Source: Verrucosispora sp. NA02020 (GTDB lineage Bacteria > Actinomycetota > Actinomycetes > Mycobacteriales > Micromonosporaceae). Taken from it: DNA of 64,000 bases. Below the pieces are notes generated by a model that worked only from the letters and a program-made list of their open reading frames with translations, had not been told where the DNA came from and made no database searches. The translations under genes were made by a program, and so were the position numbers. Location: assembly GCF_013364215.1 (NCBI RefSeq), contig NZ_CP054923.1, forward strand, positions 4,216,001 through 4,280,000. Reading direction: 5' to 3'. Shown one piece after another: positions 40,052 through 49,260 of this stretch (positions are counted from its first letter, which is position 1; each line of letters starts with the position of its first letter).

Positions 40052-40897
40052 CTAGTGCGGGCGGCGCACCCGGCCCCGGTTGCCGACGGCGGTCAGCAGG
40101 CGGCCGTGACCGACCGGCGCGACCCGGGCCATCAGGTCCGGCAGCCGGGCCGACCAGCCGATCAGGACCCGTCCCCGGCGGCGGGCCACCCCGCGCAGCA
40201 CCGCCTCGGCAGCGGTCCTCGGGTCGATGGTGAGCAGCCGCTCGAACCGCTGCCGGCCCACCTCGTACTCGGCCTCGTCCACGCCGCTGCCCACGCGGGC
40301 GTCGCGGGCGATGCGGGTCCGGATGCCGCCGGGGTGCACGCAGGTCACGCCGACGCCGTCGGCGGCGAGCTCGTGTCGCAGCGCCTCGGTGAAGCCACGG
40401 ACGGCGAACTTGCTGGCCGCGTAGGCGACCTGCCCGGGCGGGGCGATCAGACCGAAGAGGCTGGAGACGGTGACCAGGTGCGCCCCGGGCGCGGCCTTCA
40501 GCGCCGGCAGCAGGGCGTGGGTCAGCTGCGCCACAGCCCGGAAGTTGACCTCCATCACCCAGCTGAACTCGTCGAACGTCACCTCGTCGAAACGCCCGCC
40601 GAGCGCCACCCCGGCGTTGTTGACCAGCAGCCGGATGACCGGATGCCGGTCCCGGACCTGCCCGGCGACCGCCCCGGTGGCCGCCGCGTCGGCCAGGTCG
40701 ACCACGCACGTGTCGACCGCCCGGCCGGGGTGTGCGGCGCGGACGGCGTCGGCCACCGCGTCGAGCCCGGCGGCGTCGCGGTCCAGCAGGACCAGTGCCG
40801 CGCCGCGTCGGGCCAGGCCGTGTGCCAGGGCCGCCCCGATGCCACCGGCCGCGCCGGTCACCACCGCGGTGCCGTCGGTGAAGTCGAACCTACGCAT
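40052..40897 (-). CDS. Short-chain dehydrogenase
   Basis: 281 residues: TGAAGGIGAALAHGLARRG (NAD(P) site, about 15), LLVNNAGVALGG, VSSLFGLIAPPGQVAYAASKFA (Ser, Tyr, Lys near 143-160) and HPGGIRTRIA. C-terminal extension of about 60 residues, as in SDRs linked to Baeyer-Villiger type flavoproteins. The start overlaps the flavoprotein monooxygenase gene by 8 bases, so the two enzymes act in one pathway, probably on an alcohol/ketone pair (inference). Confidence 0.92.
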   Translation of the reverse strand: MRRFDFTDGTAVVTGAAGGIGAALAHGLARRGAALVLLDRDAAGLDAVADAVRAAHPGRAVDTCVVDLADAAATGAVAGQVRDRHPVIRLLVNNAGVALGGRFDEVTFDEFSWVMEVNFRAVAQLTHALLPALKAAPGAHLVTVSSLFGLIAPPGQVAYAASKFAVRGFTEALRHELAADGVGVTCVHPGGIRTRIARDARVGSGVDEAEYEVGRQRFERLLTIDPRTAAEAVLRGVARRRGRVLIGWSARLPDLMARVAPVGHGRLLTAVGNRGRVRRPH

Positions 40898-42371
40898 CGA
40901 CAGCGCTCCCTCGTGGCGTGCCGGCCGCGTCGAAGCGGACCCCGGCGTCGGTGACCCGCCCGTAGCGCAGCATCAGCAGGTCACGCGGATAGTTCTGGTG
41001 CAGACGCCAGGGCGGGCGGTGGCCCTGCGACGGCAGGTGCGCCAGGCCACGGCGGACGTACCCGGAGGTCAGGTCGATCAGCGGCGCCCGCCGCCCGTCG
41101 GGCGGGGCGAGCGGGGTGACCACCCGGGTCCCGGTGCGGTCCAGGTGGCGCAGCAGCCGGCACACGTACTCGGCGACCAGGTCGGACTTCAGCGTCCAGG
41201 AGGCGTTGGTGTAGCCCAGCGTCATGGCGAAGTTCGGCACGCCGGAGAGCATCATGCCCTTGTAGGCGACCGTCCCGGGCAGGTCCACGTCGACGCCGTC
41301 CACCCGCAGCGTCATGCCGCCGAGCGCGAGCAGGTCGAGCCCGGTGGCGGTGACCACCACGTCGGCCGGCAGTTCCGCGCCGCCGGTGAGCCGGACGCCG
41401 TGCGCGGTGAACGTCTCGACGGTGTCGGTCACCACGCTGGCCCGCCCGGCGGAGAGGGCGTCGAACAGGTCACCGTCGGGCACCACGCAGAGCCGCTGGT
41501 CCCACGGGTCGTAGCTCGGCGTGAAGTGGCGGTCGACGTCGTACCCGGCCGGCAGCCGCCGGGTCACGGCCCGCCGCAGCAACGCCCGGACCAGCCCGGG
41601 CGCCCGCCGGCTGAGCTGGTAGGTGGCGGCCGTGGCCAGCACGTTCTTCGACCGGATCAGCGGGTACGCCAGCCGAGCCGGCAGGCGCCGCCGCAGCGTG
41701 TCGGCGACCGCGTCCCGGGCGGGCAGCGCCAGCACGTACGTCGGGGACCGTTGCAGCATGGTCACGTGGGCGGCGCGCCGTGCCAGTGCCGGGACCAGCG
41801 TGACGGCGGTGGCACCGCTGCCGATCACCACCACGGTACGACCCGAGTGGTCGAGGTCGGCCGGCCAGTGCTGCGGGTGCACGATCCGCCCGGTGAACCG
41901 CTCCTGCCCGGGAAAGTGCGGCGTGTGCCCGGCGTCGTAGCGGTAGTAGCCGGTGCAGGCGTACAGGAAGTCGCAGGTGAGCACCACGGTGTCGGCGGTG
42001 TCGGCACGGTGCACGTGCACCGTCCAGCGGGCCCGTTCGCTGTCCCACTCGGCACGGACGACCCGGTGCCGGAAACGGATGTGCCGGGTCACGTCGTACG
42101 CGTCGGCGGTGCGTCGCAGGTAGTCGAGGATCGTGCCGCCCTCGGCGATCGCCGTCGGCGCGGTCCACGGCGCGAAGGAGTAGCCGAGGGTGAACATGTC
42201 GGAGTCCGAGCGCACCCCGGGGTAACGGAACAGGTCCCAGGTGCCGCCGAGGTCGTCGCGGGCCTCCAGCACGGCGTACGTCTTGTCGGGGCAGCGGCGA
42301 CGCAGGTGGCAGGCGGCGCCGATACCGGAGAGCCCGGCACCCACGATGAGCACGTCGACATGGTCGGACAT
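40890..42371 (-). CDS. Flavin-containing monooxygenase (EthA/Baeyer-Villiger type)
   Basis: 493 residues: FAD site DVLIVGAGLSGIGAACHL (about 5-22), the fingerprint-like region FPGQERFTGRIVHPQHW (BVMO-type FxGxxxHxxxW variant, about 152-168), NADPH site VVIGSGATAVTLVPAL, and a late ATGLDLL. The family includes EthA, which activates ethionamide. Converts ketones to esters or oxidises S/N. ATG 42371 follows GGGAGG; the frame extends further upstream but that part is not homologous. Upstream of the SDR gene and coupled to it. Confidence 0.9.
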   Translation of the reverse strand: MSDHVDVLIVGAGLSGIGAACHLRRRCPDKTYAVLEARDDLGGTWDLFRYPGVRSDSDMFTLGYSFAPWTAPTAIAEGGTILDYLRRTADAYDVTRHIRFRHRVVRAEWDSERARWTVHVHRADTADTVVLTCDFLYACTGYYRYDAGHTPHFPGQERFTGRIVHPQHWPADLDHSGRTVVVIGSGATAVTLVPALARRAAHVTMLQRSPTYVLALPARDAVADTLRRRLPARLAYPLIRSKNVLATAATYQLSRRAPGLVRALLRRAVTRRLPAGYDVDRHFTPSYDPWDQRLCVVPDGDLFDALSAGRASVVTDTVETFTAHGVRLTGGAELPADVVVTATGLDLLALGGMTLRVDGVDVDLPGTVAYKGMMLSGVPNFAMTLGYTNASWTLKSDLVAEYVCRLLRHLDRTGTRVVTPLAPPDGRRAPLIDLTSGYVRRGLAHLPSQGHRPPWRLHQNYPRDLLMLRYGRVTDAGVRFDAAGTPRGSAVDA

Positions 42372-42468
42372 CGGCTCGCCTCCCGCTCCCCTGCTGGTGC
42401 CCCGGACCCTACCCAGCCCCGCCGGGCGGCCTACCCCACCCCGGCGCGCCCATCCGCCGCGCGGTGCG

Positions 42469-43128: not shown

Positions 43129-43236
43129 GACAGCGACGGTAGCCCGTCGACGCGCGGTTCCACGGTGGACTTCGGGGGGACACTGTGCGTGGTCGACCTG
43201 TGCCACTCTGAACGACGGGGTCGGTCGCTGGAGGTG

Positions 43237-43860
43237 ATGGTCACGCTACGCACGCAGCAACTCGTCGCCGTGCCGGACGTCCCACCGCTCGACGTCGACG
43301 TGCCCGTCGGGGCGACGGCGGCACTGGTCGCCGAACCCGGCGTGGGCACCTCCGTGGTCCGGGTGGTGGTCGGGTTGGTCGCGCCGGTCAGCGGCCGGAT
43401 CCTGGTCGGCGAGCGGGACGTCACCGACCTGCCGCCACCGCGTCGGCGCATCGGGTACGTGCCGGCCGGAGGTGCCCTGCTGCCGCACCTGACCGTCGGC
43501 CGCAACATCTCCTACGGCCAGCGCCGCCGCCAGCGGGTCCACGACGTCGCCGACGACTGGGCGTCCACCCTGGTCGACCGGCTCGAACTCTCCCCGACCC
43601 TGGGGCTCCGGCCGCACCAGATCTCGGAGGCGCAGCGGTTCCGGGTCGCCCTCGCGCGGGCCATGGCGTGCCTGCCCGAGGTGCTGGTGGTCGACCTGCC
43701 CACCCCGGTCGACGGGGTGCGCCTCACCCCGCTGCTGGACCGGCTGTCCCCACCGGATTCCCCCCGTGTCACCGTGCTGATCGGCTCGGGGCACCCCGAG
43801 GTGCTGGCCGAGGTGCCCACGCAGGTTCCGGTACGGGCCGCCGACGGGGCGACGGCGTGA
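43237..43860 (+). CDS. Degenerate ABC-transporter nucleotide-binding protein (pseudo-ATPase)
   Basis: 207 residues with the overall ABC layout but its active site lost. Walker A reads AEPGVGTSV (32-40): Lys is replaced by Thr. The Q-loop reads GYVPAGGALLPH, without Gln. The signature is ISEAQRFRVALARAM in place of LSGGQ. Walker B is VLVVDLP, with Leu for the catalytic Glu. Only an H-loop-like His (GSGHPE) remains. The MalK regulatory C-terminus is missing. ATP hydrolysis is unlikely. The start is uncertain: ATG 43237 or GTG 43234, with GGAGG unusually close. It overlaps the next gene by GTGA. It may be a structural partner or sensor of the permease. Confidence 0.8.
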   Translation: MVTLRTQQLVAVPDVPPLDVDVPVGATAALVAEPGVGTSVVRVVVGLVAPVSGRILVGERDVTDLPPPRRRIGYVPAGGALLPHLTVGRNISYGQRRRQRVHDVADDWASTLVDRLELSPTLGLRPHQISEAQRFRVALARAMACLPEVLVVDLPTPVDGVRLTPLLDRLSPPDSPRVTVLIGSGHPEVLAEVPTQVPVRAADGATA

Positions 43861-45134
43861 CCGCGGCCGGGCGACTGCGCCGTCGTACCCTGCTGCGGTC
43901 CGCCGTGGCGACGACCGTGGCCGGGGCCGCCGGCTGCGCGCGGGGTCCCCGCCCGGTGCAGGTGGCGGTGGTGTGGAGCGGCGCCGAGCTGACCCGGTTC
44001 CGGGAGGTGGTCGCCGGCTTCCCCGACGTCCGGGTGATCGGCGTGGGCAACGACATCGACGCCTTCCTGACCGCGCGGATGCTCGCCGGCACCAGCCCGG
44101 ACGTGGCGATCCTGCCGCGACCGGGGCTGATCGTCGAGTACGCCCGTCGGGGCTGGCTCGACCGGGTCGCCCCGGCCAGCAGCTACCTGGCGCCGGCCGG
44201 GATGGCCGACCTGCTCACCGTCGACGGGCACCGGTACGGCCTGTGGATCAAGGCGGCGCACAAGTCGCTGTTCTGGCACTTCCCGTCCATGCTCGCGGAG
44301 CCGCCCCGCACCTGGGACGCGCTGGTCGAGACGACCCGCCGCCTCGGGGCACGCCACCGGGCGGGCGAGGGCCCGGCGCCGTTGGCGGTCGGTGCCGCCG
44401 ACGGGTGGGTGCTCACCGACTGGTTCGAGAACGTGCTCGCCGACATCGCCCGTCCCGGGGGGTACGAGGCGCTGGCCCGGGGCGAGGCCGACTGGCAGGG
44501 CCCGCCGGTACGCGACGCCCTCGACCGGCTCGCCGAGCTCTGGAGCATCGACGGCGCGTTCCCCGGCGGCGGTCAACGTGCCCTGCTCACCCAGTTCGAG
44601 GAGTCGGTGATCCAGGTGGCGCACCACCGGTCCGCCGTCATGGTGTTCGAGGCCGACTTCGTCGACGGCGTGGCCGCCCGCTTCCGGCGCGGCACCGAGC
44701 CGCTGGTGACCTTCCGGTTTCCCGGTTCACGGGTGGCCGACCAGCCGTTGGTCGTCGGCGGCGACGCGGCGGTCGCCTTCACCGGCTCCGCCGCCGGGGT
44801 GGAGCTGGTGCGCTGGCTCAGCGACGCGGCGGCGTTCCGCCCCTGGTTGGAGGCGGGCGGCTACCTCTCCCCCAACCTCGTGGTGCCGGTGAACAACTAC
44901 CGTGACCCGCTGCGTCGACGGCTGGCGGCGGAGTTCCGGGCCGTCGAGGCGCTGCGCTACGACCTGTCGGACCGCCTGCCGGGCACCTTCACCGGCACCG
45001 ACGGGGTGGGGATCTGGCGCATCATGCAGGACTTCTTCATGGACGTGACCGACGGGGTGGCCGCCCGGGAGGCGGTCCGGCGGGCCACCGGGCAGCTCGC
45101 CGAGGCGGCCCGGGCGGCGGGGAGCGGACGATGA
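43857..45134 (+). CDS. Lipoprotein substrate-binding protein of a sugar-type ABC system
   Basis: 425 residues. The N-terminus RLRRRTLLRSAVATTVAGAAGC has a Tat-like Arg run and a lipobox with Cys27. The rest is an extracellular solute-binding protein family 1 fold: VWSGAELTRFREVVAGF, TSPDVAILPRPGLIVEYARRGWL, VDGHRYGLWIKAAHKSLFWH, and EFEESVIQVAHHRSAVMVFEADF (in parts). Family 1 proteins bind oligosaccharides or polyols. GTG 43857 overlaps the pseudo-ATPase stop, and its end overlaps the permease by 4. Confidence 0.9.
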   Translation: MTAAGRLRRRTLLRSAVATTVAGAAGCARGPRPVQVAVVWSGAELTRFREVVAGFPDVRVIGVGNDIDAFLTARMLAGTSPDVAILPRPGLIVEYARRGWLDRVAPASSYLAPAGMADLLTVDGHRYGLWIKAAHKSLFWHFPSMLAEPPRTWDALVETTRRLGARHRAGEGPAPLAVGAADGWVLTDWFENVLADIARPGGYEALARGEADWQGPPVRDALDRLAELWSIDGAFPGGGQRALLTQFEESVIQVAHHRSAVMVFEADFVDGVAARFRRGTEPLVTFRFPGSRVADQPLVVGGDAAVAFTGSAAGVELVRWLSDAAAFRPWLEAGGYLSPNLVVPVNNYRDPLRRRLAAEFRAVEALRYDLSDRLPGTFTGTDGVGIWRIMQDFFMDVTDGVAAREAVRRATGQLAEAARAAGSGR

Positions 45135-46888
45135 GGCGCGACCCCGTGCTCGGGCAACTCGCCCTGCTCGACGACGTGGGGCCGCCCCGGCGCGGGCGCG
45201 CGTACCCGGCGACCGGCGCCACCTGGGCGTTGCTCGCCCCGGCCGCGCTCCTGCTCGGTGGGTTGCTGGCCTGGCCGGTGCTGCGGACGGTGCAGGCCAG
45301 CGTCACCACCGACGGGCGGTGGGTGGGCGCCGAGCACTACCGGGCCGCCCTGACCTCGCCCGGCGCCGGTGCCGCGGTGGGCCGGACCGTGCTCTGGGCG
45401 CTGCTGGTGCCGACCGTGGTCACCGTCCTGGGGTATCTGCTCGCCGCCGCCTCGCGCCGGTCCCAGGAGGGCTGGCTGGTCCGGTTCATCCTGGTGGTGC
45501 CGACCGCGTTGCCGCTGGTGGTCACCGGGGTCACGTTCCGGCTGCTCTACGACCCGGACCCGCAGCGGGGCCCGGTGACCCTGCTGCTGGCCTGGTTGAC
45601 CGGCACACCCGAGCGGGTGCCGCACCTGCTCGGGCCACGGCTGGTGACGGTGGCGGTGATGTCGGCGTTCGTGTGGGCCTGGGTCGGGCTGGCCGTGCTG
45701 GTGTTCCGGGCCGCACTCGACACCGTGCCCGCCGATCTGGTCGACGCGGTACGCGCCTTCGGCGGCTCCCGTCGCGACGTGTTCTGGGACGCCCAGTGGC
45801 GACCGTTGATGCTGCGTACGGTGGCGGTGGTCTTCGCCCTGGTCGCGGTCGGCACCAGCCGCACCTTCGACCTGATCCTGGTGATGACGCCCGGCTCGGT
45901 ACGCGACGAGGCGTCGGTGCTGGCGCTGCGGATCTGGCAGACGTCCGGGGCGACGACCACCGGGCAGGGCGCGGCCCTGGGCGTGATCTGGCTGGTCGCG
46001 GTGACCGCCGGCATGCTCGTGGTGTCGATGTTCATCCGGCAGGCGTGGCCGCCGCCACCGCCACGGGCCGTGCCCGCTTCCGCGCCACCGCCGCGACGAC
46101 TGGTCCGGCTGCTCGCCGCAGCGGCCGCCGTGGCGTGGCTGCTGCCGCTCGGGGTGCTCGCGGCCACCTCGTCGCAGAGTCCGGTGCGGGCGGCCACCGC
46201 CGCCTGGTGGTCCGGGCCACCGGGTCTCGACTCGTACCGGGCGGTGCTCGGCGGGACGGGCCTGTGGCGCAGTCTGGGCTTCACGCTGCTGCTGGCCCTG
46301 GTCGTCACCGCCGTCGTGCTCTGCGTGGCGCTGCTCGCCGCGTACCCGTTGGCCTGGCTGACCGGGCCACCCGCCCAGGCCGTCGGGCTGGCCCTGCTGG
46401 CCGCCGCGGTGGTCCCGGTGCAGGTCGTCGCGGGGCCGATCAACGAGGTGCTCGGCCTGGCGCTCTCTTCCGGCACCGCGCGCGGGCTGGCGCTGGTGCA
46501 CATCGCGCTGGGGATCCCGTTCGCCGTGCTGGTGCTGCGCAACGCCTTCGCCGACCTGCCCGCCGACCAGGTCCGGGCCGCCCGCCTCGGTGAGCGGCAC
46601 CTGTGGGACACCCTGCGACGGCTGGTCCGCCACCACCGCACCGCCGTGGTGGCGGTGGCCGTGCTGGAGTTCGTCCAGGTGTGGAACGACCTGGTGGTGG
46701 GTCTGCTGTTCAGCGGCCCGGACGCCGCCCCGCTCGGTTGGTTCCTGGCCGAGCAGACACGGGGTTTCGTGACCGGCAGCGGCACGCTCGCGGCCGGATC
46801 GGTGCTCGCCTCGATCCTGCCGGTGCTGGTGTTCGTGCTGGGCCGCCGACAGATCGTCGCCGGGCTGGTCGCCGGGGGCGTACGGTGA
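45131..46888 (+). CDS. Fused ABC permease (MalF-like and MalG-like halves in one chain)
   Basis: 585 residues with about 12 membrane helices. Both halves have an EAA-type cytoplasmic loop, the contact point of the ATPase: DAVRAFGGSRRDVFWDAQW (about 198-216) and VRAARLGERHLWDTLRRLV (about 476-494). In most sugar importers these are two proteins. A Pro-rich linker (WPPPPPRAVPASAPPPRR, about 305-325) joins them. ATG 45131 overlaps the binding protein gene; its stop overlaps the STAND gene (GTGA). With a dead ATPase as neighbour, it either borrows another ATPase or does not transport. Confidence 0.9.
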   Translation: MRRDPVLGQLALLDDVGPPRRGRAYPATGATWALLAPAALLLGGLLAWPVLRTVQASVTTDGRWVGAEHYRAALTSPGAGAAVGRTVLWALLVPTVVTVLGYLLAAASRRSQEGWLVRFILVVPTALPLVVTGVTFRLLYDPDPQRGPVTLLLAWLTGTPERVPHLLGPRLVTVAVMSAFVWAWVGLAVLVFRAALDTVPADLVDAVRAFGGSRRDVFWDAQWRPLMLRTVAVVFALVAVGTSRTFDLILVMTPGSVRDEASVLALRIWQTSGATTTGQGAALGVIWLVAVTAGMLVVSMFIRQAWPPPPPRAVPASAPPPRRLVRLLAAAAAVAWLLPLGVLAATSSQSPVRAATAAWWSGPPGLDSYRAVLGGTGLWRSLGFTLLLALVVTAVVLCVALLAAYPLAWLTGPPAQAVGLALLAAAVVPVQVVAGPINEVLGLALSSGTARGLALVHIALGIPFAVLVLRNAFADLPADQVRAARLGERHLWDTLRRLVRHHRTAVVAVAVLEFVQVWNDLVVGLLFSGPDAAPLGWFLAEQTRGFVTGSGTLAAGSVLASILPVLVFVLGRRQIVAGLVAGGVR

Positions 46889-49260
46889 CCGGCCCGCGCC
46901 GGCCCACCCGGCGACCTCGCCTGCTCAGCGTGCTGCTGGCGCTCGGCGGTGTCCTCAGCGCCGGAGTCAGCGCGCTGCTGGGCAACATCACCGGCAACCT
47001 GGTCTCCGACCTGTCCGTGACCGCCCTCGGCTCGGCCAGCCTGGGCCTGGCGGCACTCGGTGTGGCCGCCTCCTTCCTGGTGGAGTGGCGACGCCGGCAA
47101 CGGACTCCGGTGCCCGCCGACGACCACGCCGTCCCCTCGGCGACCGTCAACGCCCCCACGCTGCCCAGGTCGGGCGGGTTCACCGGACGCCCCGGACAGG
47201 CGGAGGAGGTGGTGGAGCTTCTCGACCCGGAGCACGCCGTGGCGGTGGTGGGTCGACGGGGCATCGGCACCTCCTGGTGCGCTATCAAGGCCGCCGACCT
47301 GTGCAAGGACCGGTTCCCCGACGGGCAGTACTACCTCGACCTGCGCCGAGGCGGTCGGGCGCTCTCGCCCCGGGAGGTCCTCACCGCGCTGGCCCGCATC
47401 CTCGGCACCACCCCGCCGTACTCGGGACGCGCCGACGACCTCGCCGACGCCGCGGACGCGCTGCGCGGCCAGGTCGACGGCCGCAGAGTCCTGCTGGTGC
47501 TGGACAACGTGGACGACCCCGCCCAGGTCCGCACGCTGCTGCCACCGACCACCCGGGTCTGCCAGCTACTCCTGGCCGGCACCGGACGGCTCGGTGCGCT
47601 CAACGGAGTGCAGCCCTACGGGCTGGCGGAGCCGACCACGAAGGACGCGGTGGAGATGTTCGCCGTCGCCGCCGCCGGGGGACGTCGTCCGCCGCGCGAC
47701 GACCCGCGTCTGGACCCCGACGCCGAGACGATCGTGGAGCTGTGTGGCCGCCAACCCCGTGCCGTGACCGCGCTGGGCCGGCAGACGACCACACACGGCT
47801 GGCGACACGCCGACGTGCTGCACGCACTGCGTCGGGCCGCCGACACACCACCGCACCAGCGGGTCGACTTCTCGCCGATGGCCGAGCTGGTCGTCGCGCA
47901 GGACACCGCGTACCACGCCCTCGGTGCCGAGGCGCGGAGACTGTGGCGGCTGATGGCGCTCAGCCCGGTGCCGCTGGACCGGCCGAGCATCGCCGCGCTG
48001 GCCCGACGCCGCCCGGATCGCGTCGCCGCGCTCATCGACGAGCTGGCCGACGGCGCCTTCGTGAAAGCCGAGACCGGCGACCGGTACGAGATCAGAGAAC
48101 CTCTCGCCCCGTACGCGCGGATGCACCTCCGGGCGACCGTGCCGGTGCGCCGCCGGGTGAACGCCCAGGCGCGGCTGACCCGGCACCTGGCCCGCCGGGC
48201 CGAACGGCAGGTGACCGGGCTGACGGCGCCCGGTCCGCCGGGGACCGACCAGCGACTACCGACCGACGACCCGTACGACTGGTTCACCCTGCACCAGGAC
48301 CTGCTGCTGGCCGTGGTCAAGGTGCCGGCCGGCGCGGTGCAGGCGCTGCCCCGGCGGGTACGGGGTTGGTGGTTCCGGTTGGCGGTGGCGTCGTGCGGGT
48401 GGCTCGCCCACGCCGAGCGGCGCGACGCGTGGGAGGACCTCTGCCGGACGGTGCTGGCCAACCCGACCACCCAGCAGCGGCCGGAGATCGCCGGGTGGGC
48501 GCACAACCAGTTGGGCGTGGTGCTGCGGCACCGCCACGACCCGCACGGCGCGATGGCCGAGCTGAGCCTGGCGGTGACCGCGCAGGGACGCCGGGGCACC
48601 GCCCAGGCCCGGATGAACCTCGGGCTGGCCCTGCTCGACCTGGGGCGGCTGGACGAGGCGGTGGCCCACCTGGAGTTGTCCCGTCGGCACCGGGCCGGCG
48701 GCGACCGCGCCGGGCAGGCCCTCAGCGACCTGGGACTGGGCGCGGCACGGCTGGCGCGCGGCGACCGGGAGGCCGCCCACGACCTGCTGGTGCGGGCGGC
48801 GAACACGTTCCGTTCGCTGGGCGACTCGCGTGGCTACGCGGCGGCGCTGACCAATCTCGTCCTGGTGCACGTCGCGATGGGTGAGTACCTCGACGCGGCC
48901 CAGGCGTGGCGGGCCGCGCTGCGCGAGTACGAGACGGTGGTCGATCCGACCAACCGGGCGGTGGCGCTGCTCAACGCGGGGGCGGCGCTGCTCGGCACGG
49001 CGCCGGGCCAGGCCGACCAGGCGTCGGCGTGGCTGACCGAGAGCCTGCGGCTGCGGGCGGGCGGTCGGGCCGACGCGGGGCTGGGTAGGACGCTGTTGCA
49101 CCTGGGCGACTCGGAAGCCGCCCGGGAGCGCCACGACCTCGCCCGCCGACACTGGATCGACGCCTCGGCGGTCTGCGAGTCGGTCGGCGACGAGGAGGGT
49201 CAGCGGGCGGCCGACGACCGCCTGGCCGACATGCGGTCCGTGGAGCCGACGTCGGGGTGA
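46885..49260 (+). CDS. Membrane-anchored STAND (NB-ARC-like) NTPase-TPR protein with altered P-loop
   Basis: 791 residues. Two membrane helices (about 12-34 and 44-67), a nucleotide-binding domain (about 95-370), and a helical repeat region with TPR units in the last 300 residues (WAHNQLGVVLRHRHDPHGAM, MNLGLALLDLGRLDEAVAHL, ALTNLVLVHVAMGEYLDAAQAW). Walker A is VVGRRGIGTSW (122-131): Thr stands in for Lys. Walker B VLLVLDNVDD (202-211) is intact. STAND proteins act as switches that sense a signal and recruit effectors; here the membrane helices suggest contact with the permease. GTG 46885 overlaps the permease stop. Confidence 0.85.
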   Translation: MTGPRRPTRRPRLLSVLLALGGVLSAGVSALLGNITGNLVSDLSVTALGSASLGLAALGVAASFLVEWRRRQRTPVPADDHAVPSATVNAPTLPRSGGFTGRPGQAEEVVELLDPEHAVAVVGRRGIGTSWCAIKAADLCKDRFPDGQYYLDLRRGGRALSPREVLTALARILGTTPPYSGRADDLADAADALRGQVDGRRVLLVLDNVDDPAQVRTLLPPTTRVCQLLLAGTGRLGALNGVQPYGLAEPTTKDAVEMFAVAAAGGRRPPRDDPRLDPDAETIVELCGRQPRAVTALGRQTTTHGWRHADVLHALRRAADTPPHQRVDFSPMAELVVAQDTAYHALGAEARRLWRLMALSPVPLDRPSIAALARRRPDRVAALIDELADGAFVKAETGDRYEIREPLAPYARMHLRATVPVRRRVNAQARLTRHLARRAERQVTGLTAPGPPGTDQRLPTDDPYDWFTLHQDLLLAVVKVPAGAVQALPRRVRGWWFRLAVASCGWLAHAERRDAWEDLCRTVLANPTTQQRPEIAGWAHNQLGVVLRHRHDPHGAMAELSLAVTAQGRRGTAQARMNLGLALLDLGRLDEAVAHLELSRRHRAGGDRAGQALSDLGLGAARLARGDREAAHDLLVRAANTFRSLGDSRGYAAALTNLVLVHVAMGEYLDAAQAWRAALREYETVVDPTNRAVALLNAGAALLGTAPGQADQASAWLTESLRLRAGGRADAGLGRTLLHLGDSEAARERHDLARRHWIDASAVCESVGDEEGQRAADDRLADMRSVEPTSG

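Follow-up and report, generated by a model that had tools for sequence, protein, structure and literature searches.

A four-gene actinobacterial operon joining a degenerate ABC importer to a membrane-anchored pseudo-STAND protein

Introduction

According to excerpts of two papers (PMC10427625 and PMC6468293), the sugar ATP-binding cassette (ABC) importer MalFGK2 of Escherichia coli is coupled to MalT, a STAND protein with a tetratricopeptide repeat (TPR)-type sensor: the importer anchors MalT via MalK in the absence of sugar transport (PMC10427625), and the MalK surface that binds MalT is its C-terminal domain (PMC6468293). MalT cycles between ADP-bound and ATP-bound forms and activates transcription, and both partners in this transporter-linked control use ATP. 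Here, we analyze a four-gene operon in which ATP handling is apparently gone from both partners, and which many soil actinobacteria keep as a unit, across genera. The operon occupies positions 43237-49260 (forward strand) of a 64,000-nt stretch of DNA from Verrucosispora sp. NA02020 (assembly GCF_013364215.1, NZ_CP054923.1:4,216,001-4,280,000, forward strand), hereafter the window; its overlapping, co-directional open reading frames (ORFs) encode an ABC ATPase, a solute-binding protein (SBP), a permease, and a STAND/TPR protein.

The closest solved sequence relative of the STAND protein is AfsR (PDB 8k60 and 8jke), with an E-value of 6.4e-57 over the NB-ARC and TPR regions. Most of the 33 next-nearest proteins are AfsR/SARP-type; they retain the Lys, Arg, and His nucleotide contacts, and most list a SARP or helix-turn-helix (HTH) domain. 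The window protein, by contrast, has a membrane hairpin and lacks all three contacts. The top Foldseek match of its structural model is the tTPR-STAND protein PH0952 (PDB 6mfv), which binds ADP according to an excerpt of PMC6468293; Apaf-1 and CED-4 were also matched, all at low global template modeling (TM) scores, and the global superposition on PH0952 is poor (TM 0.36-0.44). Among NCBIfam models, the nearest were AfsR and then HaaT (NF041717), both far under their cut-offs; HaaT aligned to residues 46-785 with 115.3 bits against a cut-off of 1125, and membership in that family was rejected on this score. The preliminary description of the locus knew of no described system of this build, and our limited literature searches, several of which used rare term combinations and which are a weak test of absence, agree.

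We consider it somewhat probable (roughly 55%) that the operon encodes a single membrane complex derived from an ordinary CUT1 (alpha-glucoside-like) importer that no longer pumps and acts as an ATPase-free, sugar-responsive signaling device or scaffold.

Catalytic residues are missing from the ABC subunit and the STAND protein

In the window ABC subunit, Walker A reads AEPGVGTS, the Q-loop region YVPAGG, the signature region ISEAQRFRV, and Walker B VVDLPT. The earlier account of a GVGTS Walker A, a missing Q-loop Gln, DLP at Walker B, and a broken signature is thus correct, and the motifs that an importer ATPase would carry (Walker A Lys, Q-loop Gln, signature, Walker B Glu, and H-loop His) are lacking. 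These losses extend to the relatives. In an alignment of 84 ABC proteins (62 from the genus, the window counted in, and 22 from elsewhere), the Walker A Lys, the Walker B Glu, the H-loop His, and the first signature Gly occur in 0/84, and the Q-loop Gln is missing from every row in which that column is filled. The protein is still recognizable as a nucleotide-binding domain (NBD). Its P-loop is not conserved among relatives, which read RFGTA, RPATA, FGGTT, or nothing recognizable; only the loss of Lys is common to them, and whether this residue appears replaced or deleted depends on the alignment. Three rows (L131-L133) are gapped at Walker A, and the stretch there reads GETGFGGT. In the window protein, the residue that follows the H-loop position is a His (GSGHPE), and most of the relatives shown have no His there.

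For the STAND protein, the previously reported GIGTS Walker A and intact Walker B were confirmed as GRRGIGTS and LVLDNVDD. Residues G123, G128, T129, S130, and the Walker B D207 are invariant across 23 diverse sequences. Among 84 family proteins, the position of the P-loop Lys holds Thr in 81, Ala in two, Ser in one, and Lys in none; the position of the winged-helix domain (WHD) His holds Arg in 79 and His in none; and the sensor-1 Arg is missing in 83, the sole Arg belonging to a fragment (P0093) that is seemingly out of frame there. The Walker B Asp is kept in 83/84. All three contacts are present in 33/33 of the next-nearest STAND proteins. To the earlier question of whether G-x-G-T-S is kept in both P-loops, the answer is therefore yes for the STAND protein, in which it is conserved, and no for the ABC subunit, in which the loop varies and only the absence of Lys is shared.

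Two controls within the window genome indicate that the loss of Lys in the operon is not due to chance: GxxxxGK[ST] was present in 30/30 ABC_tran loci examined (the best 30 of 150 scored matches) and in 7/7 NB-ARC paralogues examined. With three tested nucleotide contacts lost, classical ADP/ATP switching by the STAND protein is unlikely, and the proposal of a STAND switch in that sense needs revision. The fold itself appears to be retained, as an AfsR profile match and a structural model with a predicted local distance difference test (pLDDT) score of 85 both point to an NB-ARC domain followed by a TPR arm. Pfam and NCBIfam models gave no HTH or SARP DNA-binding match for the window protein, which sets it apart from AfsR/SARP regulators. 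A wider search yielded 277 matches, 120 of them listed; before AfsR-type proteins were reached, these added only a partial Micromonospora protein (P0245, 64%).

Two relatives with a GTS-type P-loop lack the usual hairpin. One (P0084) has an N-terminal extension with no Pfam match, and the other (P0090) carries an XRE-type HTH (HTH_3/HTH_31) at its N-terminus, a hint that this module can be put to use in transcriptional control.

The solute-binding protein and permease are of the CUT1 type

Pfam analysis of the window proteins returned ABC_tran, SBP_bac_1, BPD_transp_1, and TPR_12, with AAA_22 only below the cut-off. The SBP matched SBP_bac_1 above the cut-off, and its model (pLDDT 88) resembles sugar SBPs such as 2b3b and 8xba, with 11-19% identity among the 50 matches listed; sugar binding is predicted on these grounds. 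Family SBPs P0138, P0154, P0170, and P0173 are alpha-glucoside transport proteins by UniRef name. A motif conserved in the family, GAADGWVLTDWFENV, suggests a retained ligand pocket.

The permease has two BPD_transp_1 stretches inside one protein, as expected for the membrane part of a CUT1 importer. Its EAA coupling loops lack the Glu in both halves and are otherwise degenerate; the Glu is likewise missing from both halves in all 18 family sequences shown, and in three Nocardia sequences among these 18 the loops are scrambled and the VWND block is kept. A candidate permease-STAND fusion (P0058) was rejected as evidence of contact, since its permease homology ends at residue 442/585 and the joint resembles a frameshift.

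Distribution, linkage, and selection

All counts of distribution are lower bounds. The permease was matched at E≤1e-60 in 64/151 sampled genus genomes, and 62 of the 63 genus loci besides the window were fetched. Within these 62, the permease and STAND genes are present in 62/62 and the ABC and SBP genes in 61/62 (the miss is a locus at a contig edge). Gene order is kept, and 4-base overlaps occur at the three successive junctions in 61, 59, and 54 loci; in the window, the overlaps are GTGA (ABC/SBP), ATGA (SBP/permease), and GTGA (permease/STAND), in agreement with the layout first described. At the family level, the permease was matched at E≤1e-40 in 18/150 genomes and 13/44 genera (three of the 18 genomes are from the same genus), and 13/15 further family loci have all four genes; in the other two, the ABC match is split over two frames (L124) or the contig ends inside the permease (L130). 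In named species genomes, a pattern scan gave 165 matching stretches; 96 were relatives, and 80 of these were kept, corresponding to 73 loci from genera including Micromonospora, Actinoplanes, Rugosimonospora, Actinocatenispora, Umezawaea, Lentzea, and Nocardia. The four-gene set also occurs in other Micromonosporaceae and in Pseudonocardiaceae.

More distant matches were few. At the class level, only one genome (G748) was matched beside the window genome at 1e-45 (n=394, three candidates scored per genome); at 1e-60 (n=246), 19 other genomes were matched, in each case at half length or with a stop separating the halves, and these look like ordinary two-gene permeases. At the phylum level, only the window genome was matched at 1e-30 (n=296, four candidates scored per genome). 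At most 3 of 15 diverse loci share any neighboring family outside the operon, and the four-gene set therefore looks self-contained.

The four proteins diverge together, with pairwise divergences that correlate at 0.81-0.91 (14 loci, 91 pairs). Median ratios of nonsynonymous to synonymous substitution (dN/dS, NG86 method) are 0.395 for ABC, 0.403 for SBP, 0.260 for the permease, and 0.342 for STAND, based on 1703-1882 pairs with dS of 0.1-1, none of which exceeded 0.73; given the probable saturation of dS in genes this rich in GC, we take these medians as upper values.

Origin of the operon and a reduced form in Nocardia

Two related loci (L166 and L167) are ordinary CUT1 importers of the alpha-glucoside (AglEFG-like) kind, in the order ABC-SBP-permease-permease. 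They resemble the four-gene set in gene order and in the VWND block of the permease, and their SBPs share the motif DGWTLTDWFENV and are 33-38% identical. Unlike the four-gene set, they encode a long canonical ATPase (GPSGCGKTT, LSGGQ, DEP, and an H-loop), and their two permeases are separate proteins whose EAA loops are intact; the locus read gave no match to STAND. Judging from these sequences, the parent of the operon looks like a standard CUT1 importer whose ATPase was normal. In the SBP tree, the three ordinary importers lie on one side (98/97), one of their rows being very long, and the STAND-linked and Nocardia systems lie on the other. Elsewhere in the window genome (L297, C1:5925000-5937000) there is a related ordinary SBP with two permeases, and no ORF in this 12-kb stretch carries both GK[ST] and LSGGQ. 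The first permease of one ordinary sister importer (L167:3523-4953) has an insert of ~100 residues that, by eye, resembles an extracellular beta domain.

A smaller set was found at 20 loci, namely 16 Nocardia loci from the pattern scan and four others that closely resemble them (g63). It consists of the SBP, the permease, and then a TPR protein, whose aligned length in the 16 is 549-608 aa and whose N-terminus is hydrophobic in 16/16 measured. In none of the 20 loci does the TPR protein have a GK[ST] or GTS P-loop, and the NB-ARC domain is gone. An ABC gene was found in 0/20 by BLAST or a family ABC profile; 19/20 could be judged in this way, the remaining locus (L230) having 264 bases upstream of the SBP. 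The five Nocardia SBPs included in the tree nest with those of Umezawaea, Lentzea, G748, and G306 (96/97), inside the four-gene clade, and the Nocardia form is therefore most simply read as a reduction of the four-gene set. Because the SBP, permease, and TPR protein remain there with neither NB-ARC domain nor ABC gene, neither ATPase seems to be needed for whatever function is selected. Two Nocardia-type loci (L229:3887-5221 and L235:4032-5333, minus strand) have as a divergent neighbor a stand-alone class II aminoacyl-tRNA-synthetase-like gene (tRNA-synt_2b and HGTP_anticodon).

Interpretation and alternatives

The preliminary description was right in part. Its claim that the set is not a normal importer is strongly supported by the missing ABC catalytic motifs, the degenerate EAA loops, and the lack of an ABC gene with the Nocardia form; a STAND switch in the classical sense is unlikely. 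The four-gene set probably works as a sensor or scaffold instead of a pump. The further idea of the preliminary description, that an extracellular ligand may be sensed and the signal passed to a membrane-bound STAND protein, fits the gene order, the co-divergence, and the MalK-MalT precedent, in which an importer speaks to a STAND protein (PMC10427625, excerpt). We infer complex formation, a ligand class, a signal direction, and a regulatory output as follows. The lipoprotein would bind an extracellular sugar or glycan and dock onto the fused permease, with the pseudo-ABC subunit serving as a cytoplasmic adaptor instead of a motor; a conformational change would then reach the membrane-anchored pseudo-STAND protein, whose TPR arm would bind or release a cytoplasmic partner. 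As neither partner should cycle nucleotide, we propose that sugar binding is relayed mechanically to the TPR arm.

Several observations weigh against this sensor or scaffold. The 207-aa ABC subunit lacks the C-terminal domain by which MalK holds MalT (PMC6468293, excerpt), so any contact with the STAND protein must differ. The flanks of the 15 diverse loci suggest no target gene. Single-frame matches are partial for the SBP in L084 and for STAND in L039, L067, and L097, and, with the ABC match of L124 that runs over two frames, may reflect decay or sequencing error. The HTH fusion in P0090 is a single metagenome protein without context.

We rejected the idea that a normal transporter and STAND pair has decayed locally. 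The window does lack the catalytic residues, and a few loci have the partial or split genes just mentioned; however, Lys is missing from both P-loops in every readable relative across genera, down to ~25% identity, the STAND replacement residues are near-fixed, and dN/dS is below 1. Normal GKS/T P-loops in most relatives, the pattern by which the preliminary description would have stood refuted, were sought among the readable relatives and none were found. In another alternative, a shared MsiK-like ATPase would power the importer in trans, with the pseudo-ABC subunit as a vestige and the STAND protein as a regulator; this runs counter to our preferred reading and appears improbable. The SBP and permease are of the CUT1 type, CUT1 permeases can share one ATPase, and the window genome has at least 150 ABC_tran matches; however, the EAA Glu is missing from both permease halves in the 18 family sequences shown, the loops are scrambled in the three Nocardia sequences, the pseudo-ABC gene has a dN/dS like that of its neighbors, and its product would fill the docking site. 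More doubtful again is a gated channel or facilitator that passes a small sugar independently of ATP, which would suit a Nocardia form that keeps SBP and permease without a linked ATPase but leaves the linkage to a STAND/TPR protein unexplained.

An envelope scaffold is unlikely, albeit the alternative to which we give the most weight. Here, the SBP, permease, and TPR protein would make up a platform with a structural or glycan-handling role, and sugar binding would localize enzymes without classical signaling. This reading accords with the retention of permease, SBP, and TPR arm by the four-gene and Nocardia forms alike and with a window STAND protein without a matched DNA-binding domain, but the diverse loci share no flanking family, envelope or other, above the frequency given earlier, and a pure scaffold would have no need of the ligand pocket suggested by the SBP motif.

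The operon may further represent a widespread actinobacterial receptor class in which the importer motor and its partner STAND are both disabled, with a mechanical relay through the transporter fold to a nucleotide-free pseudo-STAND (the P-loop Lys replaced by Thr and the WHD His by Arg) acting as an ATP-independent TPR platform, and with Nocardia as a stripped-down end state; we advance this tentatively, at rather under even odds. With the four-gene set, one can test directly whether signaling through a transporter fold requires a motor and whether a STAND/NLR fold depends on nucleotide switching to work; the Nocardia form is a minimal natural comparison. Some actinobacterial annotations of “ABC transporter” and “TPR protein” may hide this four-gene system.

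Features and flanking sequence of the operon

Table 1. Coordinates of the operon genes and selected motifs in the window.
Feature	Position	Strand	Details
Pseudo-ABC ATPase	43237..43860	+	207 aa, ATG start; CUT1/MalK-like NBD without C-terminal regulatory domain
Degenerate Walker A of ABC subunit, AEPGVGTS	43330..43353	+	
Sugar-type solute-binding lipoprotein	43857..45134	+	425 aa, GTG start; presumed lipobox Cys27 at 43935-43937
Fused two-domain permease	45131..46888	+	585 aa, ATG start; degenerate EAA loops; conserved VLEFVQVWND block
Membrane-anchored pseudo-STAND	46885..49260	+	791 aa, GTG start; hydrophobic hairpin, NB-ARC without nucleotide contacts, TPR repeats
N-terminal hydrophobic hairpin, ~residues 11-68, then Arg-rich stretch	46915..47088	+	From hydropathy; model confidence low for residues 1-52
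STAND P-loop, GRRGIGTS	47251..47274	+	G-x4-G-T-S invariant in 23 diverse relatives
Intact STAND Walker B, LVLDNVDD	47494..47517	+	

A block reading CTGTGnCAnnCT at 43198-43209, which precedes the ABC start by ~28-40 bases, is conserved across 13 aligned upstream regions and is a possible promoter or operator. A flavin-monooxygenase-like gene, named by eye, lies at 40890-42377 on the strand opposite to the operon; a gene of this kind occurs near the operon in 47/62 fetched genus loci, at a varying distance, and was unmatched in 15 non-genus loci. The widest recurrence among the flanks involves one gene common to L134, L225, and L227 (64-84% identity) and another common to L123, L124, and L128.

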